Notes under the pieces: generated by a model
The model's input: only the letters and a program-made list of their open reading frames with translations
What the model was told of the DNA's origin: nothing
Databases searched by the model: none
Assembly: GCF_000317045.1 (NCBI RefSeq)
Contig: NC_019703.1
Coordinates: 3,852,934-3,916,933, forward strand
Direction: 5' to 3'
DNA: 64,000 nucleotides
From: Geitlerinema sp. PCC 7407
GTDB taxonomy: Bacteria; Cyanobacteriota; Cyanobacteriia; PCC-7407
Program-made: the position numbers and the translations under genes
In this document: positions 21,785 to 62,000 of the stretch, piece by piece
Numbering within the stretch: the first letter of the stretch is position 1
Layout: each line of letters opens with the position of its first letter

Positions 21785-23017
21785 ATGAGAACCGCCTACC
21801 AGTACCGATTGCGTCCAACTTCCAGTCAAGTCGCCTTGATGAGCGAATGGCTGGAACTCTTGCGCAGACAGTACAACTACCGTCTCGGTGAGCGGTTCTC
21901 TTGGTATGAACAAAACCGCTGTGACATCAATGTCTGTCCCTTAATTTGTCATCTGCCAGAGCTTCGAGAGAATCCTGACTTCTACTCTCAGAAACGAGAC
22001 CTGGTGAACTCCAAAGCTCTGTTTCCGGAGTACCAGCAGATTCACTCTCAAGTGCTGCAAGACTGCATTGGCCGGGTGAAGAAGACCTTTGACCGCTGGC
22101 TCAAAGGAGACTGCAACGGCAAGCGAAGCGGCAAGCCTCGCTTCAAAGGAGCAGGCCGCTATCGCTCCTTCACCTTCCCGCAAGCAAAGCAAGACTGCAT
22201 CCAGGGCAAACAAATCAATCTCCCCAAGATTGGCTGGGTGAAACTGATTCAGCATCGACCCTTACCGGAAGGCTTCAAGGTCAAGACCGCCACCGTCAGC
22301 TACAAAGTTGATGGCTGGTATGTGACTCTGAGCTTGGAAGACTCCTCTGTCCCAGCTCTCACTCCCGATGCCACCGGCATTGAGAACACGATGGGGATTG
22401 ATTTGGGCTTGAAGTCGTTTTTGGTAGACGATGCAGGGCAAGAAGAACCCATTCCCCAGCACTACCGAAAAGCTGAAAAGCGTCTGAAGCGGTTGCAGCG
22501 TTCACTGTCACGCAAGAAAAAAGGGTCCAATCGCCGGAAGAAGGCGGTTAAACGAGTTGCCAAGGCGCACCTAAAAGTCTCAAATCAGCGCAAGGACTTT
22601 CACCACAAAGTCGCAAACAAGCTTTTATCCAAAGGAAATCATGTTGCTCATGAAAAGCTAAACATTCGAGGTATTGCCAGGAGCAAGCTGGCAAAGTCAA
22701 CTCATGATGCTGGTTGGGGCCAGTTCCTGCAAATTCTGGCAATCAAGGCTGAAAGAGCCGGGTTGCTGACGATTGAAGTGAATCCCAACGGTACGTCTCA
22801 GAACTGCTCTGGTTGCGGGGTCAAGGTACCAAAAACACTTCAGGACAGGATTCATGCCTGTCCTGAGTGTGGGCTGACGATTGACCGTGACCACAATGCA
22901 GCGGTCAATATCAAGTATTTGGCGGTAGGGCATTCCGTCAATAAAGCTCAGGCAACGCCCGATGGGTTACCAGGGGTCACTGAGAAGCCGACACCGTATA
23001 CGTCAGTATCGGTGTAG
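21785..23017 (+). CDS. tnpB: TnpB, RNA-guided RuvC-type endonuclease
   Basis: TnpB proteins use a transcript of the element's right end (omega RNA) to cut DNA next to a transposon-associated motif and are ancestors of Cas12. The 410-residue product looks intact: N-terminal helix-turn region (MRTAYQYRLRPTSSQ), RuvC motif I at D206 in GIDLGLKSF, motif II at E290 in VAHEKLNIRG, a zinc finger C341-x2-C344...C359-x2-C362, and motif III DRDHNAAVNI with D367/D369. A Lys/Arg-rich helix (228-263) lies between motifs I and II. A C-terminal extension after NIKY is Pro/Thr-rich. No frameshift or missing catalytic residue, so the nuclease may be active. Confidence 0.93.
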   Translation: MRTAYQYRLRPTSSQVALMSEWLELLRRQYNYRLGERFSWYEQNRCDINVCPLICHLPELRENPDFYSQKRDLVNSKALFPEYQQIHSQVLQDCIGRVKKTFDRWLKGDCNGKRSGKPRFKGAGRYRSFTFPQAKQDCIQGKQINLPKIGWVKLIQHRPLPEGFKVKTATVSYKVDGWYVTLSLEDSSVPALTPDATGIENTMGIDLGLKSFLVDDAGQEEPIPQHYRKAEKRLKRLQRSLSRKKKGSNRRKKAVKRVAKAHLKVSNQRKDFHHKVANKLLSKGNHVAHEKLNIRGIARSKLAKSTHDAGWGQFLQILAIKAERAGLLTIEVNPNGTSQNCSGCGVKVPKTLQDRIHACPECGLTIDRDHNAAVNIKYLAVGHSVNKAQATPDGLPGVTEKPTPYTSVSV

Positions 23018-50602: not shown

Positions 50603-50674
50603 GCGGGTATAGTTCAGTGGTAGAACGTCAGCTTCCCAAGCTGAATGTCGTCGGTTCGAGTCCGATTACCCGCT
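50603..50674 (+). tRNA. tRNA-Gly (anticodon CCC)
   Basis: The acceptor GCGGGTA (50603-50609) pairs with TACCCGC (50667-50673); the D-loop has AGTTCAGTGGTAGAAC; the anticodon arm is TCAGC-TTCCCAA-GCTGA giving CCC; the T arm is GTCGG-TTCGAGT-CCGAT. CCA is not encoded. A long hairpin follows, and its 3' part may have served as an integration site. Confidence 0.95.
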
Positions 50675-50838: not shown

Positions 50839-50957
50839 ATGTACTCCAACTCATCCCCCAAAAAGCTTCCAAAGGCCCTGTTCAAGTCATCAGCTCCAAT
50901 GGGCGTTTGCAGCTTCGCTTTCGCTACAGAAGAGCGTTTGAGCATTTATCACTAATG
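50839..50957 (+). pseudogene. Remnant of a tyrosine-type site-specific integrase, N-terminus only
   Basis: ATG at 50839 begins MYSNSSP; after a shift of frame in the run CCCCCAAAAAG (50855-50863) the sequence reads QKASKGPVQVISSNGRLQLR and then FRYRRAFEHLSL. KGxVQVISSNGRLQLRFxY is what I recall as the arm-binding start of cyanobacterial phage-type integrases. The rest of the gene, including the catalytic R-H-R-Y domain, is absent. It stands 165 bases after tRNA-Gly, the classical integration target. Confidence 0.6.
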
Positions 50958-51106: not shown

Positions 51107-52147
51107 ATGGTCAGCACTCCCGATAAACCCATTCTCGGCAGACTGGAGAAGGTTGATGTTCGCCGGTATTGGGTACGGGAAGACCTGGACTTTACGCCGT
51201 GGCTTGCGGAGCCTGAGAACATTGCGCTCCTGGGCGAGACCATCGGATTTGAGCTGGAAGTCGAGGCCCGAGAGAAGGAAGTGGGGCCGTTTCGGGCCGA
51301 TATCCTTTGCAAAGACACGGCCACAGGGGCCTGGGTCCTGATCGAAAACCAGCTTGAGCGGACTGACCACTGCCACTTGGGCCAGCTTCTCACCTATGCG
51401 GCTGGTCTGCACGCTGTCACGATTGTTTGGGTTGCAGCCCGTTTCACAGAAGAGCACCGCGCCACCCTCGACTGGCTCAACGAAATCACCAACGAAGATT
51501 TCAACTTCTTTGGGCTAGAAATTGAGCTTTGGCAAATTGGAAAATCAGCGATCGCGCCCAAGTTCAATATTGTCTCTAGTCCCAACAACTGGAGTAAAAC
51601 TATCACGGGAGCAGCAAAAAGCATTGAAGCGTCCAACTTGACCAAAGCAAAACAGCTCCAGCTCGAATATTGGACTGCTTTTCAGACCTATGCGCGCACC
51701 CAGGAAACCCGAATCAAGCCAACAAAGCCACTGCCTCAACATTGGATGAATATCGCGATTGGGCGGAGTGGATTTCTCTTGTTGGCGATCGCTTCTACCT
51801 GGAACTCGGAGCAGCAAAGCTTTGATCAGGGTGAAATCCGAGCAGAGCTGGGCATCTCCCAAGGTAGCGCAGAAGATTCCAGGCGCTATTTTGACTTATT
51901 AAAGCAACAGAAAGAGGCGATCGAACTCGCTTTTGGAGAAACTCTAATTTGGGATAGTCAACTGGATCGAAAAGCTTGCCGGATTTTCGTACGCCAATCG
52001 GTTGATATCAGCGATCGCAGTGATTGGGAGCAACAGCATCAGTGGCTGATTGAGAAGCTCGACAGAATGCACAAAGTTTTTTCTCAACGAGTCAAACAAC
52101 TCAGCCTAGAAGCCATGCTTTCTAAGCCAATTGACTCTGAGTTGTGA
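51107..52147 (+). CDS. DUF4268 protein with PD-(D/E)xK nuclease-like N-terminus
   Basis: A 346-residue protein. The N-terminal half has the arrangement of a PD-(D/E)xK nuclease: FRADILCKD with Asp65, then WVLIENQLERTDHCHLGQLL with Glu80 and Gln82, a form (ExQ) seen in some nucleases of defence and repair genes. The C-terminal half (about 200-330) matches my recollection of DUF4268, with YWTAFQTYARTQ and LDRKACRIFV. ATG 51107 has GAGGT six bases upstream; an open frame to 50984 adds an unlikely leader. Family function is unknown. The gene contains a few HIP1 sites, so it is not very recent in this lineage. Confidence 0.8.
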   Translation: MVSTPDKPILGRLEKVDVRRYWVREDLDFTPWLAEPENIALLGETIGFELEVEAREKEVGPFRADILCKDTATGAWVLIENQLERTDHCHLGQLLTYAAGLHAVTIVWVAARFTEEHRATLDWLNEITNEDFNFFGLEIELWQIGKSAIAPKFNIVSSPNNWSKTITGAAKSIEASNLTKAKQLQLEYWTAFQTYARTQETRIKPTKPLPQHWMNIAIGRSGFLLLAIASTWNSEQQSFDQGEIRAELGISQGSAEDSRRYFDLLKQQKEAIELAFGETLIWDSQLDRKACRIFVRQSVDISDRSDWEQQHQWLIEKLDRMHKVFSQRVKQLSLEAMLSKPIDSEL

Positions 52148-52220
52148 GCTCAGCGCGTAAATCTCACTATCTAAGCTCAACGATTTCCACCTTTTCCATA
52201 TTTATTGCGAGGCAACCTAC

Positions 52221-53348
52221 ATGGCAGCAATTGATGTAACGTTTGACATCCCCGCCAAGATCGCCGAAGGACTAGCCGATCAAACGCTCTTTCGCAATGG
52301 AGGGGTCATTCAGGATAGCTCTGGACGAGTAGTGATGTGGTTGAGAGAACTTTCTTCAAATGGCCAAGCCGTAGAAGGGATCGTACCTGCCGGTGGAACC
52401 TCTAGCGCAATGTCACTGGTTGGGGTCGGCAGCATGTTGACCCTCGGCGTTTCAGTCCTTGGGTTTGGGGTACTGTACAGCAAAGTCAAAGAGCTAGAAA
52501 GCCAGATTCAAGGGGTGAAAGAGCTCCTAGAAACGATTGACCAGAAGATTGATATGAGCTTCTATGCGAATTTCCGCGCAGCGCTGGATCTAGCACGCAA
52601 CGCTTTCACCATGAGCGATCAAAACAATCGTCACAATAGCGCGCTACAAGCAATCAATCGCTTTCTTGAAGCCGAACACATCTACACCGATCTCTTGAAG
52701 AAAGAGCTAGAAACTAAGGGTTTGTTGTGTAACAAGTATCTATTGACTCTATGTTTTGCCTATCTCGCTGAGATTCGATGCTATCTAGAGCTTGGAGAAA
52801 GCGACACGGCATTAAGACGATTCCAAGAAGCAAATAGCGAAATACAAAAATATATAGAGCAATACATTGAGGTACTTCTCACCAAAAATCCTGCCATCTA
52901 TCTTCACCCTAAGCTAAAAGATTCGATCAACCTGTCAAGATTGACCGGGGTTTTCCAATGCTTTGACAGTGGCTTGAATGAAGGTGGTGTTTTTGAGGTA
53001 CTTCGGGACGATTTATTTCAGGCCGGGAACAACTACGAAAAATGGATGGGAGAGCTACCCCCAGCTGTTATTGCTCCGTGGAAGGTGAAGAAAGGATTCT
53101 GGGGTATTCCCGATGAGGGTAAGCAAGCCATCTTTGAACGTTTGCCTCAAGTTGTGGATGAGATGGAAAGCGCGATCGAAACTAGCCATCGGTTTGGGGC
53201 CTATGCTTATGAACTGAATTTGCTGATCAAGGCCAAAGTCTCGATGAAGCAATGGGAAAACCTCAAACCTAAGCAGCTTCCTGTTGAACAGGCAAATTTC
53301 ATCTACATCGTGCCGCCCAATCCGGTCATGCTAGAGAGCGCTGTGTAA
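52221..53348 (+). CDS. Membrane-anchored coiled-coil protein of unknown function
   Basis: A 375-residue protein that I do not recognise. Residues 1-60 are soluble, 63-85 form a Gly/Val/Leu-rich membrane span (VGVGSMLTLGVSVLGFGVLY), 87-112 a coiled coil (KVKELESQIQGVKELLETID), and the rest is mainly helical with a TPR-like feel (LLTLCFAYLAEIRCYLELGE). It has lower GC than the surroundings and no full HIP1 site, unlike almost every other gene here. It starts 74 bases after the DUF4268 gene with GAGGCAACCTAC upstream, on the same strand, so the two are likely cotranscribed. Confidence 0.72.
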   Translation: MAAIDVTFDIPAKIAEGLADQTLFRNGGVIQDSSGRVVMWLRELSSNGQAVEGIVPAGGTSSAMSLVGVGSMLTLGVSVLGFGVLYSKVKELESQIQGVKELLETIDQKIDMSFYANFRAALDLARNAFTMSDQNNRHNSALQAINRFLEAEHIYTDLLKKELETKGLLCNKYLLTLCFAYLAEIRCYLELGESDTALRRFQEANSEIQKYIEQYIEVLLTKNPAIYLHPKLKDSINLSRLTGVFQCFDSGLNEGGVFEVLRDDLFQAGNNYEKWMGELPPAVIAPWKVKKGFWGIPDEGKQAIFERLPQVVDEMESAIETSHRFGAYAYELNLLIKAKVSMKQWENLKPKQLPVEQANFIYIVPPNPVMLESAV

Positions 53349-53353
53349 CAGCA

Positions 53354-53992
53354 ATGCCTGATGGCAGGGTCATGCGCAAGGAGTTGCGGGACGTGGTTGG
53401 GAAGCAGGCGGGCTGGGTGTGGTTGGGGGGCGGGGCGATCGCGCTGTTGCCGAGCTTGGGGGCGATCGCCCTGTGCCCGGGGGCGCGGGGGTGGACCCTG
53501 GGCCTGAGCATCCTCAGCGGTCTGCTGCTGGCAGTGGGGATGATTGCGCCCAGTTTGCTGTGGCTGCGGCAGTTTCGGCCCCAGTGGTTTTCGCGGCGGG
53601 GCTGCACCCTCGGGGCGTGGGTAGCAGGATTTTTGCTGGTGCCCCAGGCGCTGGGGCTGGTGGCGGGGGCGGCGCTGGCCGTGCACTATGGCGACGCGTT
53701 TCAGGGGGCGATCGCCCTTTCGGATGGGCTCTCGGCAGGGGCGATCGCGCTCCAGATCGGACTGACTGGCCTCGGGGCGATCGCCAGCGGCAGCCTCTGG
53801 GGAACGCTTTGGTTTCTGTGGCTGTTCCAGGGCTTCCAGGCGGTGACGCTGCCCGGACTGGCAGAGATGCCCAGCTCAGCCGAGATCTGGTGGATTGGGG
53901 GTTTCTTGGGGCTGGCAGTGCTGGGGGCGATCGCGGGCGGCATCCTCAGCGAGGAGCTTTCGAGCCTGCTGGTGGAGCGCTGGCTCTCTTGA
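53354..53992 (+). CDS. Integral membrane protein of unknown function
   Basis: A 212-residue protein with five or six hydrophobic segments rich in Ala, Gly and Leu, several built on the peptide GAIA encoded by HIP1 octamers. No family recognised. The start is either ATG 53354 or 53372; neither has a clear ribosome site. GC content returns to the chromosomal level here, which marks the right side of the tRNA-linked cassette. Confidence 0.6.
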   Translation: MPDGRVMRKELRDVVGKQAGWVWLGGGAIALLPSLGAIALCPGARGWTLGLSILSGLLLAVGMIAPSLLWLRQFRPQWFSRRGCTLGAWVAGFLLVPQALGLVAGAALAVHYGDAFQGAIALSDGLSAGAIALQIGLTGLGAIASGSLWGTLWFLWLFQGFQAVTLPGLAEMPSSAEIWWIGGFLGLAVLGAIAGGILSEELSSLLVERWLS

Positions 53993-56544: not shown

Positions 56545-58059
56545 CTACTGGCCTAGAAACAGCTTGTAGGCCGGGTTTTTGTTTTCGTCCCAGTACCGGT
56601 AGCCCAGGGTATCGAGGAAGGCTTGCCAGTCCGGCATTTCATCGGGCGGCACCTGGATACCCACCACAATGCGGCCGTAGTCCGAGCCATTGTTGCGGTA
56701 GTGGAACAGGCTGATATTCCAGTCGGGGCTCATGGAGCCGACGAATTTCATCAGGGCACCAGGACGCTCAGGAAACTCAAAGCGATAGAGCAGCTCGTCG
56801 TGGGCCAAGGGCGATCGCCCACCGACCATGTGGCGCAAGTGGAGCTTGGTCAGCTCATCGTCGGTGAGATCGAGGGTCTTGAAGCCGCAGTTTTCGAAGG
56901 TCTGAGCCATTCTCACAGCGTCTGCCCGATCTTCGATCTGAACCCCCACAAAAATGTGGGCCTCCTGCTGATCGGCGATGCGGTAGTTGAACTCCGTCAG
57001 GTTGCGGCGACCCATGCAGTCGCAGAAGCGGCGCAGGCTGCCCGGCGTCTCAGGAATCGTCACCGCAAAGATCGCCTCACGGCGCTCGCCAAACTCGGCC
57101 CGCTCCGCCACAAAGCGTAGGCGATCGAAGTTCATGTTGGCGCCGCAGGCCACCGCCACCAGCGTCTGGCCCTCGATCTGCTCGCGCTCGACATAGGCCT
57201 TGGCCCCCGCCACCGCCAGAGCGCCCGCTGGCTCCAGGATCGACCGGGTGTCCTCAAAGACGTCCTTGATCGCGGCGCAGGTGTCGTCCGTCCCCACCAA
57301 AATAATGTCGTCCACGTACTGCTGGCACAGGCGGAACGTCTCCTCGCCCACCTCGCGCACCGCGACCCCATCGGCAAACAGGCCCACCTGGGACAGTTTT
57401 ACGCGCTGGCCCGCCTTCAGGGACTGATTCATGGCGTCGGCGTCCACCGGCTCCACGCCGATGATTTTGATTTCTGGGTGCAGGCGCTTCACATAGGCTG
57501 CGATGCCCGCGATCAGGCCGCCCCCGCCGATCGCCACAAAAATCGCGTGAATCGGCTGCTGGCACTGGCGCAAAATCTCCATGCCAATGGTACCCTGACC
57601 GGCGATCACCAGCGGATCATCGAAGGGATGAATAAAGGTTAGGCTCTTTTCGGCCTCTAGCTGGCGCGCGTAGGCGTAGGCATCGTCGTAGGTGTCGCCG
57701 TGGAGAATCACCTCGCCGCCCCGCGCCCGGACAGCGTCGACTTTGACCTGGGGCGTAGTCACGGGCATGACGATGATGGCCCGAGTCCCCAGCCGCTGCG
57801 CCCCGAGGGCCACGCCCTGGGCATGGTTGCCCGCAGAGGCCGCGATGACGCCCTGGGCCAGCTGGTCCGGCGATAGATTGGCGATTTTGTTATAGGCCCC
57901 GCGCAGCTTGAAGGAAAAGACCGACTGCATGTCCTCGCGCTTGAGCAGCAGCTTGTTGTTGAGGCGGGCCGAGAGATTGGGCGCGGGCTCGAGGGGAGAC
58001 TCCTGAGCGACGTCGTACACGCGGGCCGTCAGGATCTGAACAAGGTAGTCACACAGCAT
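56545..58059 (-). CDS. ilvA: Threonine ammonia-lyase, biosynthetic
   Basis: IlvA deaminates threonine to 2-oxobutanoate, the first step of isoleucine synthesis. The 504-residue length fits the long regulated form. The PLP Lys is in SVFSFKLRGAYNKI, the phosphate loop is AIGGGGLIAGIAAYV, and ASAGNHAQGVALGA is the substrate loop. Two C-terminal ACT-like regulatory domains follow (EAIFAVTIPETPGSLRRF and LYRFEFPERPGALMKFVG), which give isoleucine/valine control. Confidence 0.96.
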   Translation of the reverse strand: MLCDYLVQILTARVYDVAQESPLEPAPNLSARLNNKLLLKREDMQSVFSFKLRGAYNKIANLSPDQLAQGVIAASAGNHAQGVALGAQRLGTRAIIVMPVTTPQVKVDAVRARGGEVILHGDTYDDAYAYARQLEAEKSLTFIHPFDDPLVIAGQGTIGMEILRQCQQPIHAIFVAIGGGGLIAGIAAYVKRLHPEIKIIGVEPVDADAMNQSLKAGQRVKLSQVGLFADGVAVREVGEETFRLCQQYVDDIILVGTDDTCAAIKDVFEDTRSILEPAGALAVAGAKAYVEREQIEGQTLVAVACGANMNFDRLRFVAERAEFGERREAIFAVTIPETPGSLRRFCDCMGRRNLTEFNYRIADQQEAHIFVGVQIEDRADAVRMAQTFENCGFKTLDLTDDELTKLHLRHMVGGRSPLAHDELLYRFEFPERPGALMKFVGSMSPDWNISLFHYRNNGSDYGRIVVGIQVPPDEMPDWQAFLDTLGYRYWDENKNPAYKLFLGQ

Positions 58060-58367
58060 GGGCGTCGGGCACTGAGAGGGAAGGGCGGATAGACTTCAAT
58101 TCTACGCCAAGGGCGATCGCTCCTTAGGAGGAAAACCTCAGAGAGTTTGCGATCTTAGCTAACAGCTCATTGCGAGGCGATCGCCCTTTCAAAAGGCATT
58201 CTTGCTTGGGTTTTTAAAGGGCAGTTTCGATCTCTATTTAGCCCTTTCTTAAAATATTTTTTCCTAGAAAATTACGCTGTATCAAATTTCATTGCGGCTT
58301 CGTTGAGGTTCACGATATCTCTCAGATGAGCGAGTAGACTCGGGCTTTTAGAGTTTCGGAGCCCGAG
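58060..58367. other. Divergent spacer between ilvA and the LURP-one-like gene
   Basis: No gene. It has two HIP1 palindromes, an AT-rich middle (AAATATTTTTTCCTAGAAAA around 58252-58270) that could hold a promoter, and an inverted repeat that ends exactly at the start codon of the downstream gene (58339-58367). Confidence 0.45.
58339..58367 (+). promoter_or_regulatory. Hairpin abutting a start codon
   Basis: CTCGGGCT (58339-58346) pairs perfectly with AGCCCGAG (58360-58367), loop 13 bases, and the ATG of the next gene starts at 58368. The only Shine-Dalgarno-like bases (CGGAG) straddle the loop-stem junction, so folding would hinder initiation. Confidence 0.5.
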
Positions 58368-58949
58368 ATGAAATACCCTCTCGAATTGACTTTTAAGCTG
58401 TGGACGCTGGCCCCCCAAATGACCGTCAAAGACTCTAGCGGTCAACTTGTTTTCTGCATTCGCCAGAAGTTATTTAAGCTGCGAGAGGCCATCGGCGTTT
58501 TTGGCGATCTGCAACGCGCCCAGCTGCGCTACGAAATCAAGGCCGATCGCATTATTGACTTTTCGGCTCGATACAACTTCCTAGACAATGGGCGCGCCTT
58601 TGGCGCAGTCAAGCGCCACGGCATGAAGTCCCTGTGGAAAGCTCGCTATGACATCTATGACGGCGATCGCGTTGTCTTCAACATCAGCGAAGAAAATCCC
58701 TGGGTCAAAATCTTTGACAGCCTCTTTGCTGAGATTCCGATTGTGGGCCTCCTCACCGGCTACGTTTTCAATCCGGTGTACCTCGTGACCCACCCCGACG
58801 GCAACATCGTCATGCGGCTCGAAAAAATCCCTGCTTTTCTGTCGCGTATTTTCACGATCAAGCAAGTCGATCAGCTAACGGAAACCGAAGAAACCCAAAT
58901 TGTTCTCAGTTTGGTCATGATGCTGCTTTTAGAGCGCAATCGCGGCTAG
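58368..58949 (+). CDS. LURP-one-related (tubby-like) protein
   Basis: A 193-residue protein that resembles the LOR/YxjI and phospholipid scramblase-like fold: alternating strands with MTVKDSSGQLVFCIRQKLF, LRYEIKADRIIDFSARYNF and WKARYDIYDGDRVVFNISEE, ending in a hydrophobic helix (IVLSLVMMLLLERNRG). Residues 125-140 (PIVGLLTGYVFNPVYLV) are hydrophobic too. Plant relatives act in pathogen response; bacterial roles are unknown. Expression may be controlled by the hairpin at its start. Confidence 0.75.
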   Translation: MKYPLELTFKLWTLAPQMTVKDSSGQLVFCIRQKLFKLREAIGVFGDLQRAQLRYEIKADRIIDFSARYNFLDNGRAFGAVKRHGMKSLWKARYDIYDGDRVVFNISEENPWVKIFDSLFAEIPIVGLLTGYVFNPVYLVTHPDGNIVMRLEKIPAFLSRIFTIKQVDQLTETEETQIVLSLVMMLLLERNRG

Positions 58950-59053
58950 AAAACTCTAGGTCAAAGTCTCCCTTTAGGCAAGCCTTTCAGCTTCTAATCG
59001 CCCTTCTAGAAAGCTTCTTATTAGAAGAAATAGCTTGGGCTTTCTACGCAACT

Positions 59054-59088
59054 AACCCCCTCCCCAGCATTCTTGAGGAGGGGGTTTT
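59054..59088. terminator. Bidirectional terminator between convergent genes
   Basis: AACCCCCTCC (59054-59063) pairs with GGAGGGGGTT (59077-59086), loop 13 bases, followed by TT on the plus strand. It lies 7 bases from the stop of the large kinase gene and 105 bases from the end of the LURP-one-like gene. Confidence 0.75.
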
Positions 59089-59094
59089 GAACAG

Positions 59095-62000
59095 CTATTC
59101 CTCGAAGATAGGCAAGCGAATCAAGAACTCCGTTCCTTGACCAAGTTCTGATTTCACGTCCAGGCTGCCGCCGTGGGTTTCGGTCACAATCTGACGGGCG
59201 ATCGCCAGCCCCAGGCCTGTTCCTTTTCCCACTTCTTTCGTTGTAAAGAGATGATCAAAAATCCTTGCTTTGATCGTCTCAGGCATGCCCTTCCCATTGT
59301 CGCGAACCTGGATTTCTACCAGATCTCGATCGCTCAAAACGTCCGTCCGAATTGTGATGGTTTGGGGATGCTTTTGCAGTTCTTCGAAGGTTGTTTGCTG
59401 AGCTGCTTCATCAAATACGTCGATCGCGTTGGCTAGGATATTCATGAATACCTGATTGAGCTGCCCTGGAAAACACTTCACGGCGGGCAAGTCACCATAC
59501 TCCTGAGTTACCTCGATCGCTGGGCGATGCTCGTTTCCTTTCAGGCGATATTTCAAAATCAGCAGAGCACTATTAATCCCCTCATGAAGATTGGCATTGA
59601 CCTTATATTCGGTATCGGCTCGAGAGAACGTCCGGAGACTCGTGCTGATAGATTTGATGCGATCGTTCGCCTCCCCCATAGACTCTAGAAGGCGCGGCAA
59701 ATCTTCAATCAAGTACTCTAGATCAATCTCATCTGCGTGATCTCGAATCTCTTCTAAAGCAGCCGCATCAGATTTCTGATAAAGCGCTAGGTGCTCTAGC
59801 AGATCCGTGACGTAGTCTTTGGCATTGCTGAGGCTGCCATTGAGAAATCCGATGGGGTTATTAATTTCGTGAGCAACGCCCGCCACCAAGTTCCCCAGAG
59901 AGGCCATTTTCTCGCTTTGAACAATCTGAAGCTGCGATTGCTCTAGCCGATGGGCGTAGGTCTGGGACTGCTGGTAAAGCCGCGCATTTTCGAGGGCGAT
60001 CGCCGCCTGAACGCACAGAAAATTGAGAATCAAGATCCGATCTTTGGTGAAAACGCCGGTCGTAACTTGATTTTTCAGATACACAATGCCCAGCAAGGTT
60101 CCCTGATTGATAATCGGCAAGCACAAAATGCTTTTGGGCTGCCGTTGATCTAGATATTCATCTATCACTGGCAAGGTTGTTTCGCAGTTCTCAAAGGCAA
60201 CCACTTCGCGGGTATTTTTGACGTACTGAATTAGCTTAGCTGGCAGCTTCGAATTGCCTTCCAAAGGCTCTAGGCACAGCTCTGACTGCTCAGCCGTGGC
60301 GATCGCCCGAATCTGCCAAACGCCCTGATCATCCGGCAATATCAACGCGCAGCGATCGCCCCCCGAATTTTGCAAAATGATCTGCGTCAATTGATGGAGG
60401 AGCTGATCTAGCTGGATCGTTCCAGAGATCGCTTGGGAAGCGCGCAAAATCGCCGCAAAATCTAGAACGGTATTAATGCTAGAGCTCGACGAGCGACCAG
60501 AAGAACTCGAGGTCTTCTCTGAAAATCTTGGCGGAGGCACCAAGGTCGCCAAAGTTTCTAAAGGATTGAGAGTTCGTGCTGCCTGCTGCAAAATAGGGCG
60601 CAAAAGATTGGGGTAGTGGCGCTCTAGATCTTCGCTTTTCGACTTGGCACCCCAGTGCGCATAGCTATAGTACGCTTCTTGCAAATAGCCTGCGGCCACT
60701 CGCTCTTTTCCCAGAGCCAAATAAAACTTGGCCGCTAACTCATTGGCTAGGGCTTCTTCTTGAACATAGGCATTCGTTCGAGCACCCACAATCGCCTGAT
60801 CATAGAGCTCCATTGCTTGCCAGATATGACCCAAATGCCAAGCTTTTTCTGCCTCGATTAGATCATACTTATGCTGATGATTCATAGGAGCATGGAGCGC
60901 CCAGTTTTTCAGCATTTCCTGATTCGCTTCTACGCTTGTTAGGATCTGCTGTTTCTCCTCATCGGATGCGTGAGGCAGCTGAGCCACCAGCGCCAAAGAA
61001 TGGTAGAAATTCACAATAGCAACCTGGATAAAACCAAAGGCTGCTCCCGACCACGCTTGAGCTGACTCTACCTGCTCCACTGCCTGACGATACTCTCCCG
61101 CGTGATACAGCAAAATCGTCTTGGCAGCATAGAACATATAGAGCACCGTGCCGCTTTTTGCCTCAATGAGGCGAGGCAGTGCCTCTGTCTCATCAAAGCT
61201 TTCGCCAATCAGGCGCAGCGGATCATCGCCTTGTCCTTGCAGGTTGAGTCCTAGCTGTCGCCATACCTGAGAGAAATTGATGGGAATTTCCTGCTTAATT
61301 TTGATGCAAAGATCGATGTAGTGGCCTTGTTTTTCGACGGCGGCTTCGAGGGTTGGCTCCGAGAAAAACAGGTAGCTACACAGATTGGCTGCGCAGTAGC
61401 CGCCCCACTCAATGTCTCCTGTTTCCAGGCCGCTTTGCACTGCTTCTTGCAGTGGCGCAACGCTGTTTCGCTTATGCTCTTTCCAGGTGCGAATATTGGA
61501 ATTAAAGAGGTTATAAACCTTTGCCTTCAGGTCTTTGGCATCAAATTTTTCGAGCCATTTCAAGGCAATTTTTCCGGCCTGATAGCCCTCTTCAAGCTGA
61601 CCCGTTCCGGACAGCAGCAGCCCATAGAATCCATAGGCAAAAGCCGATAGGGCCGAGTTGCCGTGATCCAGGCACAAGCGCACCATGGTCATAATTAGCG
61701 GCGGAAATATCTCAGGCTTGGCCATAAAGACCGGCGCACACAAAATCTTCAGAATTTGCATTGCGGCCAGCATCTTTTCATCGGTCATCTGGGGTAGGCT
61801 ATCTAGCTCTTCTAGAGCGGGCAAGTTCATTACCAAGCCATCTTCTGGCGTCAGTTCAACCCAGGTAATTTCTAGTTTTTCTAGAACGTCTAGACCAATT
61901 TCGATCGCTTGCAGCATCTGCAATTGAGCAATACAGATCTGCATTTGCAGCTCATAGACCTTTACTCGATCGAGCAAAGTTTTTGCATTTTTTAGAGCAA

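Follow-up and report, generated by a model that had tools for sequence, protein, structure and literature searches.

A restriction-like nuclease candidate and a divergent JukB homologue share a probable tRNA-Gly integration spot in a cyanobacterial chromosome

Do two neighbouring cyanobacterial genes, here called ORF1 and ORF2, form one anti-phage system, or are they two modules that happen to share an integration site? Both lie in a 64,000-nucleotide stretch of DNA (hereafter, the window) from the complete 4.68-Mb chromosome of the cyanobacterium Geitlerinema sp. PCC 7407. The original prediction, made from the letters of this DNA alone, took the genes for a candidate undescribed two-gene system, in which a nuclease-like DUF4268 protein is paired with a membrane coiled-coil protein at a tRNA-integrase hotspot, and likened the pair to the build of anti-phage systems.

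Table 1. Features of the ORF1/ORF2 locus, with positions numbered from the first letter of the window.
Feature	Positions	Strand	Description
tRNA-Gly (CCC)	50603-50674	+	Attachment-site gene
Integrase stub	50859-50954	+	Degenerate remnant of a cyanobacterial tyrosine integrase, N-terminal part only (QKASKGPVQVISSNGRLQLRFRY...), in frame +1 and just behind tRNA-Gly
ORF1	51107-52147	+	346 aa; N-terminal PD-(D/E)XK nuclease fold and C-terminal DUF4268; PADLOC candidate PDC-S11
ORF2	52221-53348	+	375 aa; JukB homologue with a beta domain, hydrophobic segment, coiled coil and helical body

The predicted layout was confirmed in its coordinates, strand and spacing (Table 1): the two genes are complete and co-directed, they are separated by a gap of 74 bp, and no terminator-like site was found between them on the + strand. 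The pair is also AT-rich as described, with a GC content of 0.487 vs a window mean of 0.596 (sd 0.044), and when a 2.2-kb stretch is slid along the window, just four of 618 such stretches have a lower GC, all of them overlapping the pair. The gene directly 3' of ORF2 (53354-53992) encodes a predicted membrane protein, is very GC-rich (GC 0.69), and matched no family in Pfam, NCBIfam or PADLOC. A second AT-rich stretch of the window (58000-60000, ~49% GC) holds an unnamed 193-aa ORF (58368-58949) together with the terminal part of a large kinase-like gene on the minus strand.

Upstream of ORF1 lie an HD-domain gene (Npun_R2479 family, an NCBIfam equivalog) and tRNA-Gly(CCC), followed by the integrase stub. 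The stub shares 75% identity over 32 aa with the N-terminus of an intact integrase in another genome (G463), which is a 398-aa tyrosine-type enzyme with the Pfam domains Arm-DNA-bind_2 (PF12167) and Phage_integrase (PF00589), and which is flanked by the same tRNA-Gly on one side and by other genes on the other, next to the same HD gene. In a further genome (G386, locus L148), a full integrase lies directly behind the same tRNA-Gly. The stub, together with the integrases at the homologous site in these relatives, therefore indicates that the tRNA-Gly(CCC) neighbourhood is a real integration spot, of which the window keeps an integrase stub. Thus, of the proposed tRNA-integrase hotspot, the tRNA gene stands while a functional integrase does not: only the N-terminal stub is left, and the genome has only three PF00589 integrases, each more than 300 kb from ORF1 and ORF2. 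We found no second copy of the tRNA-Gly 3' end in the window that could serve as a right-hand attachment repeat, so the extent of the island is uncertain. A comparison with an empty site was tried and set aside: the genomes searched lie outside the host's genus and family, and none of 39 relatives carries a homologue of the gene at 53354.

With the integrase reduced to a stub and no close relatives in which selection on the two genes could be tested, one might regard ORF1 and ORF2 as inert leftovers of a decayed mobile element that have no present function. We consider this very improbable, as both ORFs are full-length and free of frameshifts, and each keeps every invariant residue of its family.

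The DUF4268 assignment of the original prediction holds for ORF1, in which this domain (PF14088) covers residues 184-328 (Pfam, E 6.9e-36) and forms the C-terminal part of the protein. N-terminal to it lies the predicted D-E-Q nuclease-like core (D65 and E80-x-Q82), with a PD-(D/E)XK active-site motif, and this too was borne out: D65, E80, N81, Q82, H90 and Y97 are invariant in 29 ORF1 homologues from many phyla. Glutamine in the ExQ position, in place of the lysine of ExK, is known in active enzymes such as BglII. The AlphaFold2 model of ORF1 (pLDDT 90.5) retrieved the mismatch-type nuclease folds EndoMS/NucS 2vld and 5gke in Foldseek, each with a probability of 1.00. The likeness is that of the N-terminal domain, which has the same nuclease fold, but only ~110 residues align; ORF1 differs in having ExQ rather than ExK, and DUF4268 instead of the NucS DNA-binding domain.

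Almost all of ORF1 (residues 10-331 of 346) matches the PADLOC family PDC-S11 (E 1.3e-119). We found no difference between the two and treat ORF1 as a member, while ORF2 falls outside the definition of PDC-S11. The PDC names denote phage-defence candidates, single- or multi-gene, that were identified via guilt-by-embedding, and PDC-S11 was found mostly in phage-resistant strains of one Pseudomonas aeruginosa panel (PMC10855318); PDC-S11 is accordingly a candidate and not a proven system. DUF4268 has also been reported in homologues of the GmrSD proteins (PMC4619093). GmrSD is a Type IV restriction system with DUF262 and DUF1524, and some ORF1 relatives adjoin GmrSD_N/HNH genes, but Pfam finds neither DUF262 nor DUF1524 in ORF1 itself. 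ORF1 relatives adjoin Type I hsdM/hsdS/hsdR or GmrSD genes at no fewer than seven loci, as checked with Pfam. ORF1 is a PD-(D/E)XK-type protein fused to DUF4268, and it is most likely a restriction-like nuclease, whose catalysis we infer. In such a protein, the PD-(D/E)XK domain would cut foreign DNA, and the DUF4268 part would probably help to choose the target.

ORF2 received no name from Pfam, NCBIfam or PHROGs. The membrane span, coiled coil and helical body that had been read from its sequence are all present: a small N-terminal beta domain (residues 1-45) precedes a single hydrophobic segment (about residues 66-85, Kyte-Doolittle 1.93, motif LTLGVSVLGFGVL), after which come the coiled coil and the helical body. 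The same order is found in an alignment of 23 ORF2 homologues, where the beta domain is conserved and the hydrophobic segment reads LNLGVSVxGFAVI. Matches to LmuB, PbeC and methyl-accepting chemotaxis proteins were rejected as identifications, being weak and largely confined to the coiled-coil part, and a viral fold library gave nothing significant against ORF2.

The top PDB fold match of the ORF2 model, which is of moderate quality (pLDDT 76.9), is JukB (9jht; Foldseek E 0.026, probability 0.97, with a low TM-score of 0.28/0.37). In the Jumbo phage killer system, which acts against nucleus-forming jumbo phages, JukB is the effector that forms pores, and the JukA sensor recruits it. The PADLOC model of JukB matches 22 of the 23 members of the ORF2 family at E<=1 (best 2.3e-10); because it does not match ORF2 itself, the link between ORF2 and JukB runs through the family. 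We compared this family with a separately assembled set of JukB-like proteins, which includes the canonical JukA-JukB pair of a Pseudomonas luteola plasmid (L191; JukA 2.4e-28 and JukB 4.4e-142), located directly after a Type I restriction operon (R-M-S). The HMM of the JukB set found ORF2 at E 1.2e-21, and the ORF2-family HMM found the canonical JukB at E 2e-12, with none of 200 shuffles reported in either direction. Aligned to each other by hhalign, the two family alignments gave a probability of 99.8 and an E of 1.3e-30 over 339 columns, and the profile of the JukB set also reaches the sequence of 9jht_A (E 2.6e-4). The reciprocal HMM matches, the hhalign result, the fold match and the sequence match to 9jht_A therefore together establish that ORF2 is a divergent JukB homologue. 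Most of the length of the ORF2 family can be aligned to JukB, with which it shares both the N-terminal domain and the hydrophobic segment, of the type LNLxVSxxGFAxM; it differs in a C-terminal body that is longer and diverged. The word "undescribed" thus fits neither protein in full, with ORF1 already catalogued as PDC-S11 and the ORF2 family JukB-like.

JukB forms pores, which are believed to lay phage DNA open to the nucleases of the host (PMC13282480). ORF2 is most likely an effector of the JukB type, a helical protein that oligomerises, pushes its conserved hydrophobic segment into a membrane and opens it; the membrane opened by JukB is the early-infection vesicle of nucleus-forming phages. 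For ORF2, we infer pore formation and the activating signal, this branch having no known JukA partner, and for both genes we infer anti-phage activity in this host.

ORF2 also differs from JukAB in its company, as it has no adjacent JukA and its family occurs alone or beside other genes. No JukA adjoins ORF2 among the window genes scanned, and JukA is absent near ORF2 homologues at most loci. The sole JukA-like match in the genome is weak (5.8e-5) and lies more than 1 Mb from ORF2. We considered whether it might act in trans, but rejected this: nearly all relatives have the weak JukA-like ORF whether they carry ORF2 or not, and because its presence is independent of ORF2 it carries no signal. 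The best reading is that ORF2 belongs to a branch of the JukB family that lacks JukA and has gone unrecognised.

Other JukB-like genes have neighbours of different kinds. At three cyanobacterial loci (L164:3297-8103, L165:5673-10013 and L190:1511-6254), two of them on chromosomes and one on a conjugative Nostoc plasmid, a dynamin-like GTPase gene is followed by a JukB-like gene, and a further uncharacterised gene usually separates the two. Pfam finds Dynamin_N in L164 and L190, and L190 also has a weak PADLOC match to LeoA; these loci may represent a JukA-free dynamin-JukB cluster. A plasmid of Candidatus Chlorohelix (L189:871-13140) carries a JukB-like gene (PADLOC 7.6e-23) in a cluster with a Druantia-like helicase, DpdE (1.7e-212), a four-helix-bundle gene and an N-6 methylase.

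The ORF2 family occurs in 25 of 386 cyanobacterial genomes, and its surroundings bear on whether it serves defence at all. Many Nostocaceae homologues keep one position, alone beside chlN/chlL, and others lie by gltS, clpB, thiE-like or other core genes, usually also alone. The fixed position beside chlN suggests vertical inheritance in the Nostocaceae and possibly a non-defence role. These placements, along with the missing JukA partner, would fit a housekeeping function such as membrane stress or remodelling, with the similarity to JukB reflecting shared ancestry only. However, the spread of the family is patchy, as is more typical of accessory genes; several copies are broken, namely one cut into two pieces by the insertion of a transposase-like gene pair (L109, 6842-9432, in genome G398) and those of G326 and G097, which are truncated or interrupted; and in L084 the gene forms a tandem duplicate. 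Some homologues also adjoin restriction genes: in L110 (7296-14393), 20 bp separate an ORF2 homologue from the Type I hsdR downstream of it, and in L111 (1-7803), a more distant JukB-like gene is found after a Type I restriction cluster. Altogether, we think a housekeeping role for ORF2 unlikely. ORF1 relatives are often near Type I or GmrSD genes; the Nostocaceae ORF2 homologues sit by core genes, although a few ORF2 homologues lie by restriction-modification genes.

In the window itself, a PADLOC scan of 47 genes found no clear defence system adjoining ORF1 and ORF2, and a defence island around them was rejected, the PADLOC matches being mostly generic (kinase PD-T4-6, ankyrin, and TnpB as Cas12f). 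The window does encode a TnpB-like protein (21785-23017; OrfB_IS605, with a Cas12f1-like TNB domain), whose gene is AT-richer than its flanks.

Do the two genes nevertheless act as one system? Here, the JukB-like protein would breach the vesicle or membrane compartment of a phage, and the PDC-S11 nuclease would destroy the DNA thus exposed, taking the place of the unspecified host nucleases. The short gap, shared strand, common AT-rich island and uninterrupted + strand between the genes are consistent with this, as is the proposed role of JukB pores in opening phage DNA to nucleases, and JukB-like genes elsewhere directly adjoin restriction genes (L191, L110, and the DpdE/Druantia-like helicase cluster of L189). 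Distribution, however, argues for two modules. Of these 386 genomes, 35 contain the ORF1 family, some twelve of them with a full-length or nearly full-length member; the others match the DUF4268 part only or carry fragments. The only genome to hold both families is the window's own, and each is common without the other. An HMM scan of all fetched loci likewise found both only in the window's own loci. A two-gene system defined by co-occurrence is therefore rejected; families that do not co-occur elsewhere were the very finding that the original prediction had named as evidence against it. Joint action of this kind thus appears distinctly unlikely, and the resemblance to an anti-phage build survives for each gene alone, one as PDC-S11 and the other as a JukB homologue, and not for the pair. 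The co-location of ORF1 and ORF2 is real, and nothing shows that they act jointly; because they occur together in this genome only, they look like two separate cargo genes. We therefore favour, as the likely explanation, that ORF1 and ORF2 are the surviving cargo of a decayed tRNA-Gly(CCC) integrative element, comprising a restriction-like nuclease and a JukB-type effector, probable anti-phage genes that usually travel separately.

One integration hotspot that collects two defence genes can mimic a system. A broader reading, which we offer as speculative and on balance doubtful, is that a JukA-independent JukB branch is widespread in cyanobacteria with changing partners, and that JukB is a modular effector which opens membranes and is paired with nucleases; its partners would be the PDC-S11 nuclease here and, at other loci, restriction enzymes, dynamin-like GTPases or a helicase cluster of the DpdE type. 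If so, the same locus would both open a phage compartment and cut its DNA. What is new at this locus is the JukA-less JukB branch, while the neighbouring nuclease candidate PDC-S11 was already catalogued. ORF2 represents a clear JukB relative in cyanobacteria without JukA, in a family that is unnamed in Pfam and NCBIfam and in which annotation tools miss ORF2. If ORF2 does protect its host, JukB-type pore formation would not depend on JukA, nor perhaps on nucleus-forming phages.
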